64,000 bases of DNA from the NCBI GenBank assembly GCA_000697055.1, contig JNDT01002076.1, forward strand, positions 1-64,000, given 5' to 3'. The stretch comes from Saksenaea vasiformis B4078. Taxonomy: Eukaryota > Mucoromycota > Mucoromycetes > Mucorales > Saksenaeaceae. The notes below the pieces were generated by a model. It saw nothing but the letters and a program-made list of their open reading frames with translations, made no database searches and was not told where the DNA came from. A program made the translations under genes and the position numbers. Below, piece after piece: positions 16,835-27,145 of this stretch. The first letter of the stretch is position 1. The number at the start of each line of letters is the position of its first letter.

Positions 16835-19800
16835 TTATTTCTTCACTCGCTTCTTCGATGGCCCCTGACTACTTTCAGCTTTGGTCTTCCTTTTCTTACC
16901 ACCACCAGACTTGATAAGTTTATCCTTGTCGATACTTTCGTCCTCTTCTTCTCCTTCCTCCTCTTCTTCAATTTCCACCACTTCTTCTTCTGCTACCACG
17001 CCTTCGTCGTCAGCCAAATCTTCAACCACTGGAGCTTCCTTGGCTTTCTTGATGGGCACACCACTGGTCTGGAAGAGAACAGGATGGCTTCGCTTGCTGT
17101 ATCTAGAAATACAAACATATACAGATTAGAAGAAGTTACACCAAAAAGAAGTTACTTACTCTCTGGTGAACGCATTCTTAATTTTTGCTGGGATCTGGGA
17201 AATTGGTTTCTTCGTGGTTCCTACTTCCAGTTCGCTCAACGTTTCCAGACTTTCGCGATCCAGATGATAAGTGTCCATCAATGCAATTGCTTCGTCAAAT
17301 TGTTCCTGTTCGGGAGTACGTTATCAGACCCGACCACACACCATCTCCAGTGAACTTACTTGCTCCAAGTATTTGAAAATACGTGTAGTCAGAGTAGACA
17401 CATACGACAATCGCAGTTCGAATTTACTTGCCGAAGACTGAAGTCGAATACCAGCTTGCATGTCCGTTAAGAGCTTTTTGTATTTCGTAGCCTTTGAGTT
17501 CTGGCCAAGCCATCTATGACACAATGAGCAAACTTCATCACAAGCCTTTATGTGCCACTTACTGTGGAAAGTTACACCTGTTTCCGGCGAAACTTCCCTC
17601 CATGTAGGATGAAGGAAATACGCACGAAAACACGGAGTGGATAGGCATAAGAGAGTACTGCTGCGATGATCTATAGACACAGTAAAGTTAAGAGCTCAGC
17701 ACGGATAACAGGATCTTTAAGAGTTACCCATGGATTTTTGCATCGACTAAATCACCATCAGCCATCGCTTCAGCTGCCTTTGCAGCGAGTTCCAACTCGC
17801 GACACGCAATTTCCTTAGGGCTGCCAGTCTTGGCCATCAAGTTGGCTTTTGCAGGGCTAGATTTTGTATAGTTTTCCTATCATTTGATCAGTATTATTAC
17901 GACTTAATCATCACCTTACAAAAATCATTAGGGGTGACAAAGATGGCTCGTGGAAATAGATGTTGGATTTTTCGGCTAACGACTTTTCCTGCCAGCCTCG
18001 AGAGCTCATAAGCTCCAACGGAATATCGAAAAGGCTCATCTGGGCTGACTTCTCATTTGTCTTCCCTCTACAATGATGCTTTAGGACTTTGACCAAAAAA
18101 AAGGGGGGGGTACATACAATGTTTTGGCATCGTCATAAGACATCTTTGTTCCATTGCGCCTGTATGTCGACAGGATATTGATGATTTGACGAATATCGTT
18201 TCTTGTTGAATGCACAAGTTCTTCGATCGCATTAGCATCGAGTTGGAGTTTCTCACTTCATTGTATATTTAGCATGCAACGTATCAGAGCTAGAGAACTT
18301 ACCGAAAAGCGATAGTCATGATTCTCGAGCGTAGTTGGTTCGCTGGCGTCCTGTAGGAGAGAATGATCGTAAAACAGTATCCTCAGATGATATTAAGTCT
18401 TACCGTTTAAACTTTGCAGGGTAACATACTTTTACCAATGGTTGCACTTTTGTAGATCGGATATCATTGCAGATACAAATGATCGGTATCTAGCATAGCG
18501 CTAGTTAGGTAACTACTAGAGAAAATAGGTATCTTGCCTTTGTTTTTCGAACTAATGACGCTAGCTCAGCTCCTCCACCTCGATCACCAGCAGACATGCC
18601 ATCCACTTCATCCATCACTAACACAATCTTCTTTCCTTTTTCCGCCTTCGTGCCACGTTAAATCATGGCGTGCACTCACACCTTCATTAGTTTACCTTAG
18701 GTCTAAGATCGCCTTTGAAAAACTCTGTCATGGTACGGTTATCGATCATGTCCGTGATTTTTTCCTACGCGTTCGTTAGAAAGTCTATACCAGTAGCCTA
18801 AAGCAAGCACATACTTGCAGCACTTTCTTGCTTCGAACGTCACTGGCATTAAATTCCAAGACTTCGTACCCGAGTGATTCGGAAACCACATGAGCAGCTG
18901 TAGTTTTTCCAATGCCAGGTGGACCACTGATCAATACTCCGCGGAAACTAAAGATATCGTCCTTTGCAGCTCCTTGAAAGTTGTTGGCCAAGTTGTTCTC
19001 CCTGCAAAACCAGATTTAGCAATGAATCCATTGGTACACTGTTGCTATTACTTACCAGCTTTCCAGCCAGGCAGTAATTTTCTTCACCATCTCCTTATTT
19101 CCCATAATTTCATTTATCGTTTTCGGCTTATATTTTTCAGTCCATAATTGAGATGCTAATTCAGCGCTTGCTAGGGTTGATGTGCTACTTGGATTGTTAA
19201 ATCGAGAATACGTTTACAAAATAGACCTACGTAGTAGCAGCTTTGGTGTCAGCTGGCGCAGCAGCAGTAGTTTTGCTTGCGGCTTTCCCTTTTGATGCTG
19301 ATGCCTTTCCTTTTGGTGCCTTTTCTACCGGCGCCATTGATTCCGTCTCTTTCTCTTCTGATTTTTCAACGAGCTCGTAGAACGCGTCCTCATCCAAAAT
19401 TTTTGTGCCCAACTTTTCTGCTTTTTCTGTTTTCGTTGCACCGGCATCTCGACCGCGAAGCAAGTAGGTTGTCTTTCCACTGACAGCGCTTGTAACCCGA
19501 CTATGAAACAGCTAAGTGTTTGTTTCTAATGATGTATCATACCCTCCATATCGCTTGATAATATCAGTCGTGGTAGCTTTGTCCATAGTCTCAAACTCTC
19601 CTGATATGACAAAGGTGCATCCTTGAAAACAGTTTGGCTTTCCTACTGGCAATGGGCGAGTGCCCAGTGCCTTTGGTGGCTCTCTGTGCATCCTCTCGTA
19701 GAAACTATGTATACATGACATGTGTACTGAGTTACATATTGATTGAAGCGAATGATTGCCGTACCTCTTTCCTTTTTTCTTCGGTGGTTCTTCTTTTACA

Positions 19801-20367
19801 TCTTCATCTTCCCGTTCTTTCACTGGGGCAACTTGCTTTCGCTTTTTCTCCGCTTTTTCGGACGCTGTTGCTGCACTCTTAGCTTTGGAAGTTGCTAAAG
19901 CCTTTTTTTCGGGCTTGATATCTTCCTCGACATATTCGTCCTCCTCGTGCTCTTCTGCAGGTTCAAATTCTTCATCGTCTTCCTTTTTAATTGGCGCTGG
20001 AGCTTTCTTTGTCGGTTTAGCTTTCTCTGCCGGTTTGATTTTCTTTGGTGGTTGGGCCTTTTCTGCCGGTCGCGCTTGCTTCGTTGCTTTCTTCGACGAA
20101 CTGAAAAACTCTGCTGGATCTACAAGCGTATCTTCTTCCTTTGATTTGCTATGTAACATTGTTAATTAAGTAGATAACTTTAAGAAATCGCGTGATTACC
20201 TTTCGTCCGCAGCGCTTTTTGATTCGCGTGAGCGTGGAGACGACTGACTATTAAAGAATGTGTAAGCAGGTTGTCATGCCTACTCCTCAAATTTACAAAT
20301 CATCGTCATCGCCACTTTTCTCTCTTTTAGTTGAAGGCTTTTTTGCAAAATACTTGGTGATGTCCAT
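16835..20367 (-). CDS. RFC1: Replication factor C large subunit
   Basis: A multi-exon minus-strand gene (at least 14 exons by splice signals), about 900 residues. It starts at ATG 20367 (MDITKYFAKKPSTKRE), like other Rfc1 N-termini with a PIP-like IxKYF. A Lys/Glu-rich linker follows, then a BRCT domain (about 190-275; CFQGCTFVISGEFE ... DIIKRYGG, exon join, RVTSAVSGKTTYLLRGRDAG). The AAA+ core opens LWTEKYKPKTINEIMGN, with Walker A GPPGIGKTTAAH, the family motif LEFNASDVRSKK, Walker B VLVMDEVDGM and sensor-1 region IICICND. The C-terminal RFC1 domain is followed by an acidic stretch and a basic tail (KKRKTKAESSQGPSKKRVKK). RFC loads PCNA at primer-template junctions. All exons are open. Confidence 0.95.
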
Positions 20368-21388
20368 GCAGTAATAATGAACGATAGCGCGACACGCGAC
20401 TTCCCAAGTTTCATTTGTGCGGATCTCTGCCGTGACCACAGAAACCGGTCTTCCAAATCGGGTAAGTAGACAGTCCACAATTGGGCCAATATTCATTAAA
20501 TCAGTTTGTGATTTCTCGCATGAATCAGGTCTTGCATTGTGCTAAGCTGTTGGTGGTTAAAGGAATACAGGCTCTTCCGTAGAGATTGGAATAGTTACAA
20601 TTGGAAAAATGCCGAGACGAATTACAAAAAAATTGTAGAAAGACAGAATTGGGACAACGAAAGAGGTTACGCAAAAGAATGGACGGGCAAAGCATATCCA
20701 ACAGTGAGTAATCCACTTTAGCTAATCCCAGATCCGCACTGGGATCCATTAGTCATTGAACTGAAGCTAATCCTAAACTGTGCGCGGATTTAGTGCCAAA
20801 ATTATCGAAAATCGTCCCAAATCAGAGTGAGTAACTATTAGTGTAATTTTCTTTGCTCTAACGGTATGCAAAAAGCGTTGTTAAATATCACCACTGTAAT
20901 ATTTGATAAAGAGAGCGTATTCTCACATTTTACGACGAATACACATTGTGCAATTTCCAAGAAAACCCACTTCATTATTGTGATCTTCCCGTTTGCTTAG
21001 ATTTCCTGATCGCCATATGTCTTTAGAAGGATGTTGTTTCAGGAATGGTATTCCCAATTTTTGTAACCGTTTTACTGCATTTTTTCCCTGTTAAAAAAAG
21101 ATGGCATAAATTTTGATTTGGATGGTACATCAACCCGGTACGGCGCATGATACACTTTGTTTGGAAATAGATATCGCAATACAAGTAAAAGAAATGCCGC
21201 AAAACAAAACAGAACGATGTCGCGGATATAAAATAAGAGATATCGCCAAATGTAGTCAAGGCAAAGTAGACCAAGAAATATGTATCTACTTACGCGAAGC
21301 TGTTTTCACCACGTTGTGGTGGCCGCCGCCTCACACCATCACGGCATGGGTTTTGTTCGCGAAATTGAAAAACGATAACAGGTACCAC
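20368..21388. other. Intergenic, RFC1 promoter side and 3' flank of Fanzor-like relic
   Basis: No gene recognised. In Fanzor/TnpB systems the guide (omega) RNA is usually encoded at or just past the 3' end of the nuclease gene, so 20.8-21.4 kb is where such an RNA would be sought. No structure could be established by eye. Confidence 0.5.
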
Positions 21389-24300
21389 TCAAAAGCACAC
21401 GTCTTGCTTGGTGATCTGACCGTAATACCGGAGCGCAATGCATGTACAAGACAACGAGTCGCGTGGAAACGAGTTTTTACATTGTTTGTAGGATTCGCAA
21501 TTTTGGTTGATACAACAGCTCGTGCCATTGTTGGCTACAGTTTTTCCATTTTTCTTCTTTCTGGGGTGAATCACACGGCAACCGCAAAATGGACATATCA
21601 TCGAGGTGCGGCGCTCGTTCGTCAGAAGCACAATACTGTGATGCATGCAAAGGCGTTTATGCCATTTGCCTCCGTACCTAAGGTGGCCTTTGATCCGCGT
21701 TCCAACCCCCGTCCCTGCATTCCCAATGGCTCGAATCATTGACTTCATGTTGTCATGTTGTTGTTTCACGATCATTTTGTTTAGAACTTGATCCTTGTGC
21801 CAAGGTAGCCACCTTTGCTGTCGTCGAACCCACTTGGCTCCATAAAATAGTCGTAAAATTGGAACTTCATTTCGTATTTTACCGTAACGTTCCACCAAGT
21901 CACCGGCATCCTTTGCATGATAAGTTGTGTTATCACATAGAACCTTTTCGGCAGCGGTCGCGTTTTGACCAAGCTCTGTGTTCTATACAACAAAATTTGA
22001 CTACATGCGCAACAACAAGAAACAAGGGAGGTTTACCTTTTTTGCCCGTTTCAATTTTTTCGAAAATTGGTAATGACCAGTGGGTTCAGCTTCACAAATT
22101 TTCCTTCTTTGATCAATTCCAACTGTTCAACGGTGTGTGTAACACTGGTCGCCAAGGTTGCCACGCCGTAGTCAGTACCAGTGATGATTGTGTTGCCCAA
22201 ATCCAAGCCCAGAGTTACATGTTTTGGATCTTCTTCGATTCTTGAGGTTGTGATGAGCTTTGATGGTGTAGGAGGAGAGCCTTTTTTCTTTGAGCTTTTC
22301 TTATTGTCCTTGATACTATTCATTGCCTAAATTGTCACCAGTGTCGATCTTAGCAGAACCCGGAATATCTACGATACGAAGATAATTTACCTTTTCTAAG
22401 TTGTACTTTGTGCTTCGAGCTGTAGCTAAACTATCTTGAATCTTATGCACTGCATCCGTGGCCGCCTGTTGTTGTCGTTTTAACGTCCTTTTCTTCCCTA
22501 TATCTTTAAAAATTTTGGTCTTCTTGACCTCATCAGCATCAAACGTAGAAGACAGGTGACGACGCAATGCATCAGATTCCTTTGGCGCGGATAAAGGGAC
22601 CGCAAATAGCTCTTGTACATTAGGTGGCGAGAGTCCAGAATCACCAACGCTCCTACCTGCCGTTACTTCGCGAGCCACATCACTGACATTGGTTGGCTTT
22701 GATACAAACGATGGCGTCGGTCGCTTGTTGCTGTTTCCTTTACCGCTATTCTTTTGAGGCATCTGGGTTCGTTCATCATGCATTGCCTTGCGATGAGCCG
22801 CAAGCTCCTTGGTTGCATTTCTTTTCACCTTCAAAGCCTTGTCACGTTCTTTTTCCAACTTGCGAATCTCATCATTGATAGTAACAGACGTATGGCTGGT
22901 TTGGACTTGGTTCACGGAAATGTCCTCGGAAAACTGGAGTCGCTTTTGATATAAAGACTGTTGTCATGGTTTCCTTGTAACGCCAATTAAACAGGTATCG
23001 TTAGCAGGTGTTATGTCCATGCGATAGATGAATTCGAGGCCGTTCTTTTGACAAATGGAATTGACGATGTCCAAATCAATGAAGCAATCAAACACATCAC
23101 GCTTTTTATGACATGACATGGCATTGGACGTTATCCCTTTGTTGGCCATGTGAAGTGTATCACCGAAGAGTTCATACAAGGATGGTGCGTCGACGGTCAA
23201 GGAATAAATGGCACCCGCCGATATTGATGGTGAAAAGCGCATGCAGAATTGTTGGTAGCCGCAGAGACGCAGCACTTCATTGCAAAAGATAATTATGTTC
23301 AATCGTAAATAACGTGGCTGGTCATGACGAACAATAAAAGGCTTGAGATAAGGGTAGATGGTTTGCATTGCATGAATTTCCTTGTGCAATAACTCTAATC
23401 CCTTGGCTTGTCTCTTCAACAATGCTGCATCAATTGTAGTTGCTTGTTCTGATAATAACAATCGCATCACGACATCTTGCAGGGATCCAATTTTGCGGGC
23501 AGAGATATCGTCGTTTGTTGATGGTAGTTGCAAATCATCCAGTTCGTAGCCTGTATTGTCAAGATTATCATGCAGGGCAACCAACGCTAGATCTTCGTCC
23601 AATTCCTAGAGAAAACAATTTGTATTTAGTAACATAAGCGCACCTCCTACCATTCATGCAGAACACGTACATCGACGTTCTCATCATTTTGTTTTTTCCG
23701 ATTTTCATGGATTGCTTTCTTGTTTTGGTCCTGTTCTTGTTGCAATTTGATACGATCCACCTTTAATGCATCCTAAGAAAAAGAAAAGAGTTATGTCAAA
23801 TGATTTTGCAGACAAACAATATGGTTTACCATAACACTCTGTAAATGCTTAATCCGATTTTCATAACCACGGCGTCGCTTTGCGGTTAGTTGGTCATCAT
23901 GGCCCATCATCTTCATCTCGATTTTCTTCAATTCCGACTCTTGTCTCCGCTTGGCATTCCGAACGTGGTTCCAACGCCTTTTGGCGATCTTCAACGCATC
24001 TTCCCTGGCCTATAATCGAGTAAAATTTCAATTTTTATTTCTTTGCAATTACATTTGGTGGACAAACATGATATTGGTATACCTGCTTGGTATTCGATGC
24101 TTTCTCAGCAGAAGCCTTTTTCTTCATATCATGATGCCGTTGCTCTCTACAGGGCGCCAGCCAAAGTCGTAAGAGCAAGCGCACTAGATATCGTAGCATC
24201 TTGTAGAATGATTGGCCATTCCAAACGTTTTTCGTAGTAGTCCCAAGTTTGTTGTTGTAAATAGCTCGGAGGCTTCTTGTGACAAGTGCGTCGGGAGCAG

Positions 24301-25197
24301 AGTAGGGCCATTCAATATCCAGATATGCCCAAACTGGATGATTCTCTTTTGTAGATGCGCGAGTGTGGTTAAAATGTGAAGAATACAAATACTGCAAACG
24401 TTCTACCCCAAAGAGGTCGTTTGACATTTCCTTCGTGGGAGGCGGCAAGGTGATAAAGTTGTCGCCATTCAAGATAGAAGGATTACGGTGTGCATATCAT
24501 GGTACAAGGCCAATGGCTCTGATATGAGTAAAAGAATCTTCGAAGATAATCAGTTTCATCAAGCTTTTACACTTTGTCTAACCTTGATACCAATCTGATT
24601 TGGGTTGTGTGGCGAATCTGAGGATGGTCGCCTGTAACAATGCTGCCATGTCTTGAGAGTATGTAGTAACTGCATTTCTAGCATTTTCAATGGTTGACAA
24701 AATCATCTTCGACACATCTGGTGACGCTTTTATATTTTGTTTAAGGATGGAAGGGAGCGACTTAGTGGCATGAACGAAGCTATTCTTTTTTTTTTTTTTG
24801 AGGAAGATGCGCTGGACGACGAGGACGAGGACGACGTAGATGAGGACGACGATTTGGGCGGTACAGCATTTAATACGATGCTGTCGAATGATTGATTCAC
24901 CGTCTGTTTCCATGTATCCAAAAACGAGAATCTTCTACTATAGGACCCATGAAACCACTCAGGACGTCTGCTGCAGGCATTATCAATGTTCTGCAGCAAG
25001 CCCTTTGGTAAACGTTTTCTGTTCAGTAGATCAGATTTCAGCTTGGTGTGATCGGTATGACGTGCGGCCTCAGAAGTGATGTATCGCTTTATCTCGTCTG
25101 TTAATGCTTGTTTCGCTTCAACTGCCCCGGTTATTGTTAATAACGGCTTTGTCATTGGACGCTCCTCTTCAAACTGGTGCGCTCGTTTGCGACCCAT
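21389..25197 (-). pseudogene. Fanzor-like RNA-guided nuclease family (TnpB relative), near full length, inactivated
   Basis: Minus-strand, multi-exon, starting at ATG 25197 (MGRKRAHQFEEERP) and ending at TGA 21389. Introns are seen at about 24010-24053, 23777-23830, 23615-23690 and 21965-22033. In order: a Ser-rich linker; a helical N-terminal region; NPSILNGDNFITLPPPTKEM; a Lys/Arg coiled region; a large helical domain (22.96-23.6 kb); RuvC-I-like LGLDLGNTIITGTDYGV (about 22.2 kb); GTGVGTRIKGHLRYGG; ending with NERRTSMICPFCGCR, a second Cys pair (SCCINQNC) and RuvC-III-like FPRDSLSC. This order matches TnpB/Fanzor (RuvC-I, zinc ribbon inserted before RuvC-III). Lesions: in-frame TAG (about 24558), TGA (about 24501) and TGA (22964), plus frame changes at an A14 run (24786), at about 22320 and at an A6 run (about 22065). 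Family members cut DNA guided by a co-encoded RNA. Confidence 0.75.
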
Positions 25198-25805
25198 CAG
25201 AGGTACAAAACGATGAAAACAAGAGCGAAAGTTGAGTAAAAAGAAAAGGAGAGAACATGCCCTTCTTCTTTTTTTTCCTTTTTTCCCATATGCACACCAT
25301 GGGAGCCCAATTGTGGCGCTTGACATAAACCTAACGTAAGTTTGATTATCACACACATTATATCATAATCCAACACATCATAAACAGTGTAATATGTATG
25401 TCACAAATCTAACGTAAATCTAATGTAAATGTAACGTACGTCTAAACGATAAAGAAAGTAAAAGGAAACAAGTATAGATATGGTATCAGCAACCAGATAC
25501 TGAGTACAGTCGTATAGCATGCGTATGAGCATACATTTCCTCATCAACGACATAATCCGTAGGTTCAGGACAGCGACGCTTATGAACAGCATGACCCTGG
25601 CCCTCTTTGTAAAAGAAATTGACTAATCATTTCGAATGTAAGGTCGTATACAGAAATGGATCTACCACACCTTGTGGGATAACTTTTCCTGTCGACACGA
25701 CATTTGACTTGTCACCAAGCAAACAATTTCTGGGGACATACGACCTCTACTTTTGTCATCCTGCGACTTCATAATTGATGGCGGAGCGACATCGATTTTA
25801 GGAAA
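25198..25805. other. Intergenic, upstream of the Fanzor-like relic
   Basis: AT-rich. Near 25405-25445 there is a short imperfect repetition of (a)atctaa(c/t)gtaa units. No TIR of a Fanzor-carrying element was identified and no ORF is supported. Confidence 0.5.
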
Positions 25806-27145
25806 TACTGAGCAAGTGGGGGGGGGGACAAAGGTGTAGACCCTCCCCTTGAAATTTTTGATTTTTTTGAAGCCACTTTGTACTTCTATTCAGTGAAAGT
25901 CAACAACCTCTATAGCTCTGAACATGAAACTTTGAAAACTTTTTCTTTAGCTGATACTTTACCTACATGTAAAATTTCATGAGTATTAATCATGTAAAAA
26001 ATGGAACAAAACTATATTTAATACGAGGTGCTTCCACCTTTAGCTTTGATTACTTGAGCAAGCCTCTTGGGCATAGTGTCTATTAACTTGTTGATCTTCT
26101 CCAAATCAACTGCATCCCAAGCCTCTATAAGAGCAGTATTCATTTCTTTGGGCGATTTGACCTGCTCTTTTCTCTTCTGGATGTAGATTTTCATTTGTTG
26201 CCAAATGTTTTCGATTGGATTTATATCTGGAGATTGAGCAGGCCACTCCAGCTTTTCCAGTTCGTATGTCTGTCTCCATTCCTTCGCGGCTTTGCTTCTA
26301 TGAGTAGAAGCTCCATCTTCCATTAGGATGGGTGCAGTCATGGTAGAGAGTATGTCGAGCAATCCACCTTCGTACACCTTATCCACATAAGCATCAGCTG
26401 TCCTCTCTTTTTCGCCCATAAAGACCAAAGGAGCCTTCATGTTCCATGAGATAGCACCCCAGATCATCACTGATGATCTTCCACTTCGGAATGTTCGAAC
26501 TACACAGTCAAGTTCATATTCTTCTCTGGAGGTTCTCCACACATGCACTTGGCGTGAATTCTTGCCAATCTCAAACGTTGCTCATCGCTCCAAATAATCC
26601 TTTTCCAGAACTCTTTAGGGGCATTAATGTATTTCTTGGCAAACGCCAGCCTATCATCCTTGTGTTGCTGCTTCAAGAATGGCTTTTTGCGAGCAACTCT
26701 TGCATGTATGCCTTGTTGGTTTAGACAGCGGCGGACTGTACGGTTGCTGACAGTTACTGTGCAAGTATTCGTCAGTTCTGTCAGTGTGCTGCGACGTTGT
26801 TTCTTGCTTGTCTGCATCAGGTGCCTAGCTTCCCTGTCATATCTTCTTTGGCCTTCCAGTGACCTGCGGCGTCTCTACACTTCCGCGATCGCGAAAACGC
26901 TTCAAGACGCCCTTCACAGAACATACAGACAGGTCACAATTCTTGGCGATTTGCGAGGGAGTAACGCCATTTTTGCGCATTGTGACGATGAGTTCTTTTT
27001 GCTCAGTAGTAAATCTCTTTGTAGACATAATATTATAGCGCAGAAATGAGAAGAAAAGGGCAAAACGACTGATAGAAACATATGCACGTTTATCAAAAAA
27101 GCATCAAATTTCAGGCGGAGGGTCTACACTTTTGTCCCCCCCCTG
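25806..27145 (-). mobile_element. Tc1/mariner-type transposon, inactivated
   Basis: About 1.34 kb bounded by inverted repeats with a G-run. The left end has GGGGGGACAAAGGTGTAGAC after TACTGAGCAAGT, and the right end (reverse complement) has TACAGGGGGGGGACAAAAGT. TA dinucleotides border both ends, as expected for Tc1 TA target duplication. It carries one transposase gene on the minus strand with frameshifts, so this copy is not autonomous. It lies about 600 bp from the start of the Fanzor-like relic. Confidence 0.85.
26018..27028 (-). pseudogene. Tc1-like transposase (DD34E), frameshifted
   Basis: Starts MSTKRFTTEQKELIVTMRKN at 27028. The N-terminal helix-turn-helix reads QIAKNCDLSVCSVKGVLKRF, followed by GRPKK. 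The DDE core shows IIWSDEQ (first Asp), MEDGASTHRS (second Asp) and SPDINPIENIWQQMK (Glu), with 34 residues between the second Asp and the Glu. Two frame changes are visible: at about 26845 (after GRPKK, before YDREARHL) and at about 26575 (after SDEQ, before FEIGKNSRQVHVW). Otherwise the full family length (about 335 residues) is present. The catalytic triad is intact, so the loss of activity comes from the frameshifts. Confidence 0.88.

Follow-up and report, generated by a model that had tools for sequence, protein, structure and literature searches.

Fanzors attract interest because they offer compact RNA-guided nucleases from eukaryotes and bear on the entry of TnpB into this domain. In the accessible portions of the literature, Fanzor1 (Fz1) is widespread in fungi (PMC10432273), is listed in Mucor (10 families), Rhizopus, and Phycomyces (PMC3627910), and mostly measures 600-700 amino acids (aa) (PMC11423790). 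The Fanzor motif is given there as D-X(125,275)-[TS][TS]-XX-C4 zinc finger-X(5,50)-RD (Bao and Jurka 2013; PMC3627910), DPG at RuvC-I together with an alternative glutamate (E_alt) as the Fanzor fingerprint, with DPG nearly exclusive to Fanzors, and a separate E_alt clade with D-hydrophobic-G is described (PMC10711439). Here, we describe a Fanzor-like element from a 64,000-nucleotide (nt) stretch of the Saksenaea vasiformis B4078 genome (contig JNDT01002076.1, our C492:1-64000; hereafter, the window). Taken as a whole, the locus is very probably best explained as a dead fungal DNA transposon in which the only gene seen is a long E_alt-type relative of TnpB and Fanzor, together with the mechanism proposed below. 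As a Fanzor-like transposon, the lineage is known in kind; it is new as a long variant with DYG at RuvC-I, of which we found no description in the portions of the open-licence Fanzor literature that were searched.

The assignment as Fanzor-like is supported at the level of the family to which the window gene belongs. A family profile found SpuFz1, the Fanzor1 of Spizellomyces punctatus (E 0.0022), and then PpFz1, that of Parasitella parasitica (Mucorales; E 0.014), as its top matches in PDB. The Pfam domain TNB (PF07282) was recognized at E <= 0.5 in 6 of 14 family members (best 1.8e-6), and a profile-profile comparison linked the family with further Fanzor-like proteins encoded by this genome (E 1.8e-11). 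When the modelled RuvC half of an intact relative was submitted to Foldseek, five PDB matches were obtained at E <= 0.001, four to SpuFz1 and one to PpFz1, which is the second-best Fanzor by both profile and Foldseek. This half is predicted to fold like Fanzor1, with the RuvC/TNB arrangement of the solved Fz1 structures; besides the predicted fold, SpuFz1, its best match, shares the alternative Glu, the C4 zinc ribbon, and the RD.

A preliminary description of the window, made from its sequence without database searches, had called a Fanzor-like gene on the minus strand at 21389..25197 and proposed profile searches, structure modelling, and a search for paralogues as checks. Coding pieces lie at these coordinates and the modelling bore the proposal out, whereas profile similarity to TnpB, Fanzor, or RuvC appeared with the family and not with the window pieces alone. 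The latter passed no family cut-off (eight pieces against Pfam, with exon 4 left out, and the exon 7 piece against NCBIfam and PDB); the Pfam matches were weak, unrelated, and all below cut-off (V-ATPase_G 0.0061, PHM7_cyt 0.0011, and DUF7815 0.025). Such a result would be expected if Cys-rich and RD words had come together by chance, without any kinship to TnpB, but this explanation is contradicted by the profile, fold, and conservation found across the family, and we consider it extremely improbable. The window gene is not a chance product, because its exon 7 piece has 75 matches at E <= 1e-5, itself included, in the genome (38.7 Mb, 666 contigs) and because a sister copy on contig C623 (L062), whose gene is broken too, is 94-96% identical across nearly the whole element. 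The exon 5 piece gave 60 matches at E <= 1e-3, again with the window included. Grouped by strand and distance (same strand, within 6 kb), the two queries mark 92 places on 82 contigs, 40 of them with both parts, although some weak places may be other Fanzor-like lineages.

Exon 7 holds, as the preliminary description had listed them, GTGVGTRIKGH, NERRTSMICPFCG, a second Cys pair (CxxxxC), and RD; within NERRTSMIC, the alternative Glu stands six residues ahead of the first CxxC, and the corresponding residue (E286) is invariant in a second family alignment, A2. The same description had taken LGLDLGNTIITG as RuvC-I. This candidate was rejected, since the block is not conserved: in the C482 copy its D and G are gone, although GTDYG, the adjacent motif that is shared across the family, is retained. 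From these alignments, we place the RuvC-I of the family at GTDYG, which also occurs in related proteins (GADYG in two). In the copy on contig C102, the motif of Bao and Jurka is present with a D916-to-SS spacing of 231, a C4 zinc finger, and the RD at D1201, and the window copy has it in the same order, spanning an intron. The canonical RuvC-II Glu of TnpB (~50 residues before the zinc ribbon) is absent: the model strand 244-250 ends in Gly250, invariant in A2, and a nearly invariant Glu227 sits in a helix and is missing from the window copy. The family differs from TnpB and Cas12f in having the alternative Glu instead of a Glu at the canonical RuvC-II place.

The window gene (minus strand, 25197-21389) begins with an M at 25197, ends with a stop codon at 21391-21389, and comprises seven exons and six GT-AG introns of 54-73 nt (Table 1); splice sites here and in the C102 gene were inferred from sequence. 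It is as intron-rich as had been described, but the exons total 3,432 nt, or ~1,144 codons including the stop, rather than about 900. The in-frame stops in exons 2 and 5 are both absent from the C623 sister, and a frame change considered for exon 2 was rejected because the alignment shows an in-frame stop instead. The frames of exons 6 and 7 are out of register at ~22056-21982 with identical spacing in all four aligned copies (window, L062, L072, and L077); therefore, the break is either ancestral to these copies or an error of the intron model, and a break in exon 6 specific to the window copy was rejected. The window copy is a fossil with a broken gene. The inactivation reported for it stands as regards the stops and the exon 1 frame change, whereas the exon 6/7 break may be ancestral or a fault of the model. 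Between the window copy and the C623 sister, the ratio of nonsynonymous to synonymous substitution rates (dN/dS) was 0.21-1.71 in six of eight pieces, with changes too few for use.

Table 1. Features of the Fanzor-like element in the window (TIR, terminal inverted repeat)
Feature	Coordinates	Strand	Remarks
Fanzor-like element, ~4.66 kb	21151..25808	-	Delimited by similarity to the C623 sister and short derivatives; 5' end approximate
3' TIR, TA at outer edge	21151..21169	+	Exact match to TIR pattern; paired TIRs in L062
3' non-coding region	21151..21388	-	Retained in short derivatives; guide-RNA candidate solely by analogy
Exon 7	21389..21982	-	GTGVG block; alternative Glu 21616-21614; C4 zinc ribbon from 21595; RuvC-III RD, D 21460-21458; stop
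Exon 6	22037..22326	-	RuvC-I GTDYG, D codon 22173-22171; no in-frame join to exon 7 in intron model
Exon 5	22391..23605	-	N-terminal, possibly wedge-like region; one in-frame stop near middle
Exon 4	23671..23772	-	Gene model
Exon 3	23830..24009	-	Gene model
Exon 2	24083..24518	-	One in-frame stop
Exon 1	24583..25197	-	Frame change at A-run
5' non-coding terminal region	25531..25808	-	Kept in short derivatives

The expectation that intact sisters exist elsewhere in the genome is borne out by C102, which has an apparently complete frame of 1,260 aa that retains D916, E1145, and D1201, a two-codon first exon, and introns at contig positions 4908-4959 and 7540-7596. Compared with five paralogues for each part (matches >60% identity only, stop codons skipped), the C102 group shows dN/dS of 0.19-0.47 in the C-terminal part and 0.21-0.38 in the N-terminal part, the latter comparison having ~20 residues near its end in the wrong frame; these copies diverge under purifying selection. 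Both the C102 protein and the window gene exceed 600-700 aa, which is a usual trait of Fanzor1 and not a strict criterion. The excess lies mostly upstream of RuvC-I, because the RuvC-I D is residue 916 of the 1,260 in C102, whereas the extra length of PpFz1 is, in the accessible text on its structure, a ~100-aa insertion in RuvC (PMC11423790). The model of the 852-aa N-terminal open reading frame (ORF) of C102 consists mainly of helices; a beta pair spans 679-699, and residues 732-838 form a long helical hairpin directly ahead of RuvC-I. This region may be REC/WED-like.

Beyond this genome, the scoring of 7,997 candidates gave 24 public relatives at E <= 0.01, including proteins of Umbelopsis, Mortierella, Lunasporangiospora, and Apophysomyces, and none of the 24 carried a precomputed Pfam domain. 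Surveys built on the published DPG fingerprint, on protein size, or on standard domain models could overlook this lineage, which lacks DPG, approaches double the usual size, and mostly escapes such models. The apparently complete C102 frame and a subfamily of near-identical young copies (described below) make the family testable.

The gene lies within an element bounded by TIRs. At its 5' end in the window, the TIR is cut short at the junction with a Tc1/mariner element, while the 3' TIR is exact. In the C623 sister, the TIR arms are 53 nt long with 75% complementarity and TA at both edges; of the outermost 29 nt, a count that takes in TA and two more nt, 26 match by eye. TA is also present on both sides in L070 and L075 (by eye), but it could not be read at the window 5' end, nor on both sides in L064, L066, and L071. 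Most or all of the gene is gone from nine short relatives, which retain the non-coding end on the 5' side, the 3' side, or both (L064, L066, L069, L070, L071, L075, L088, L089, and L090; L069 has only the 5' part in the aligned stretch). In its TIRs, putative TA duplications, and single ORF, the element resembles SPu-1 as described in the accessible part of its report (PMC3627910), but SPu-1 is ~2.1 kb with one 633-aa ORF, compared with ~4.66 kb here and an intron-rich gene of 1,144-1,260 codons with DYG at RuvC-I. The Fanzor1 families of Mucor, Rhizopus, and Phycomyces (Bao and Jurka 2013), compared by description only, come from the same broad fungal group and are likewise transposon-borne.

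The element has TIR-bounded derivatives although it showed no second gene, which would suit a protein that is the element's own transposase, that is, a RuvC/RNase H-fold enzyme acting on the TIRs with a long DNA-binding N-terminus. However, the protein has a TnpB-type zinc ribbon and the alternative Glu, and its best fold matches are RNA-guided nucleases. The TA duplications would suit Tc1/mariner-type transposases, for which genes exist in this genome. We therefore regard an own transposase as improbable. A search of the genome with the TIR pattern found no autonomous Tc1/mariner element sharing this TIR. When up to 3 mismatches were allowed, the pattern was not enriched (47 places vs 62 for the reversed control); with <=2 mismatches, it occurred at 12 places, and the 11 examined, all but C173, lie in or <=~0.4 kb from Fanzor-like copies or derivatives. 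The place on C527 has the 3' end only, and its 2.8 kb were read for ORFs by eye only.

By analogy with Fanzor and TnpB, the preferred reading of a nuclease-bearing transposon would involve the following steps: (i) intact members would bind a guide RNA derived from the 3' end of the element itself; (ii) they would cleave matching DNA, such as the donor site left empty, and thereby favor persistence of the element; and (iii) a Tc1/mariner-type transposase supplied elsewhere would move the TIR-bounded DNA. The window copy now performs none of these steps. In most short derivatives, the retained 3' part begins about at the stop codon, which would fit a guide-RNA region but also simple transposon ends.

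Several observations weigh against this account of the element and its gene. (i) Of the 21 sequences covering the RuvC-I site, 19 show DYG when read by eye (C102, C511, C431, C153, C606, C482, window, P0001, P0002, P0003, P0006, P0008, P0009, P0011, P0015, P0016, P0017, P0018, and P0029), and none shows DPG; the other two are L013, damaged there, and C623, which lost TDY through a 12-nt deletion. (ii) The second profile, A2, matched the two Fanzors in PDB more weakly (0.022 and 0.086), and a ribosomal protein ranked above them (0.012). (iii) The VIA Z values of Cas-phi3 (12.3) and AsCas12f (11.9) are near that of SpuFz1 and above that of PpFz1 (11.6). (iv) The N-terminal C102 model is weak (predicted local distance difference test 59.8, predicted template modelling score 0.29) and has no PDB match at E <= 0.001. 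(v) The 3' region does not fold unusually well as RNA (z +0.58; 138 of 200 shuffles fold as well), and 0 of 13 pairs in it show compensatory change.

Since RuvC-I is DYG, not DPG, textbook Fanzor1 membership is not established, and the Fanzor-like assignment first proposed holds at the level of the family. DYG combined with E_alt is the pattern that the accessible text reports in a clade of TnpBs lying apart from the DPG clade to which Fanzors belong (PMC10711439), and it would suit a eukaryotic TnpB lineage separate from Fanzor1 and Fanzor2 that arose from TnpBs with E_alt and D-hydrophobic-G; we think this origin unlikely, if worth keeping in mind. In its fullest form, the proposal would give Mucoromycota a third kind of TnpB descendant in eukaryotes, combining E_alt and DYG with roughly double the usual Fanzor size and with a large additional N-terminal module in which a helical hairpin is predicted ahead of RuvC-I; it would have originated apart from Fanzor1 and Fanzor2 and moved recently in this genome. 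We likewise hold this form to be doubtful.

Within the C561 subfamily (L016, L025, and L026), five further copies (C531, C604, C342, C270, and C282) are 96-98% identical over ~880 nt, and 7 of 8 copies inspected stop sharply at the same 3' end, ...GTTCAGATA, after which CTG often follows. This subfamily therefore probably moved recently. The shared end does not seem to resemble the TIR of the window subfamily. In the C606 copy (L007 and L042), the Fanzor-like gene is split by a stretch that resembles a Tc1/mariner transposase by eye. With 150 of the 388 candidates scored, at least 149 PF07282 zinc-ribbon matches were found in the genome at E <= 0.01, and the RuvC-I of these proteins is varied, including DPG (L083), DFG (L085), and DLG (L086) in addition to DYG.

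Within the 5' non-coding region of the window element, a repeat of ~240 nt (25295-25531) recurs at ~20 other places in the genome, mostly at 76-82% identity. The 5' end of the element is abutted by a Tc1/mariner element (25820-27143) with 51-nt TIR arms (84%) and DDE_3 and HTH_Tnp_Tc3_2 domains in separate frames; its inclusion in the Fanzor-like element was rejected because it is unmatched in the C623 sister. On the other side, ~1 kb away, lies an RFC1 exon (19515-20165, minus strand) encoding part of the BRCT domain (PDB RFC1, E 5.1e-10). Adjacency to RFC1 had been presented as a feature of the layout; a meaningful proximity was rejected, and the RFC1 neighborhood is merely the insertion site.
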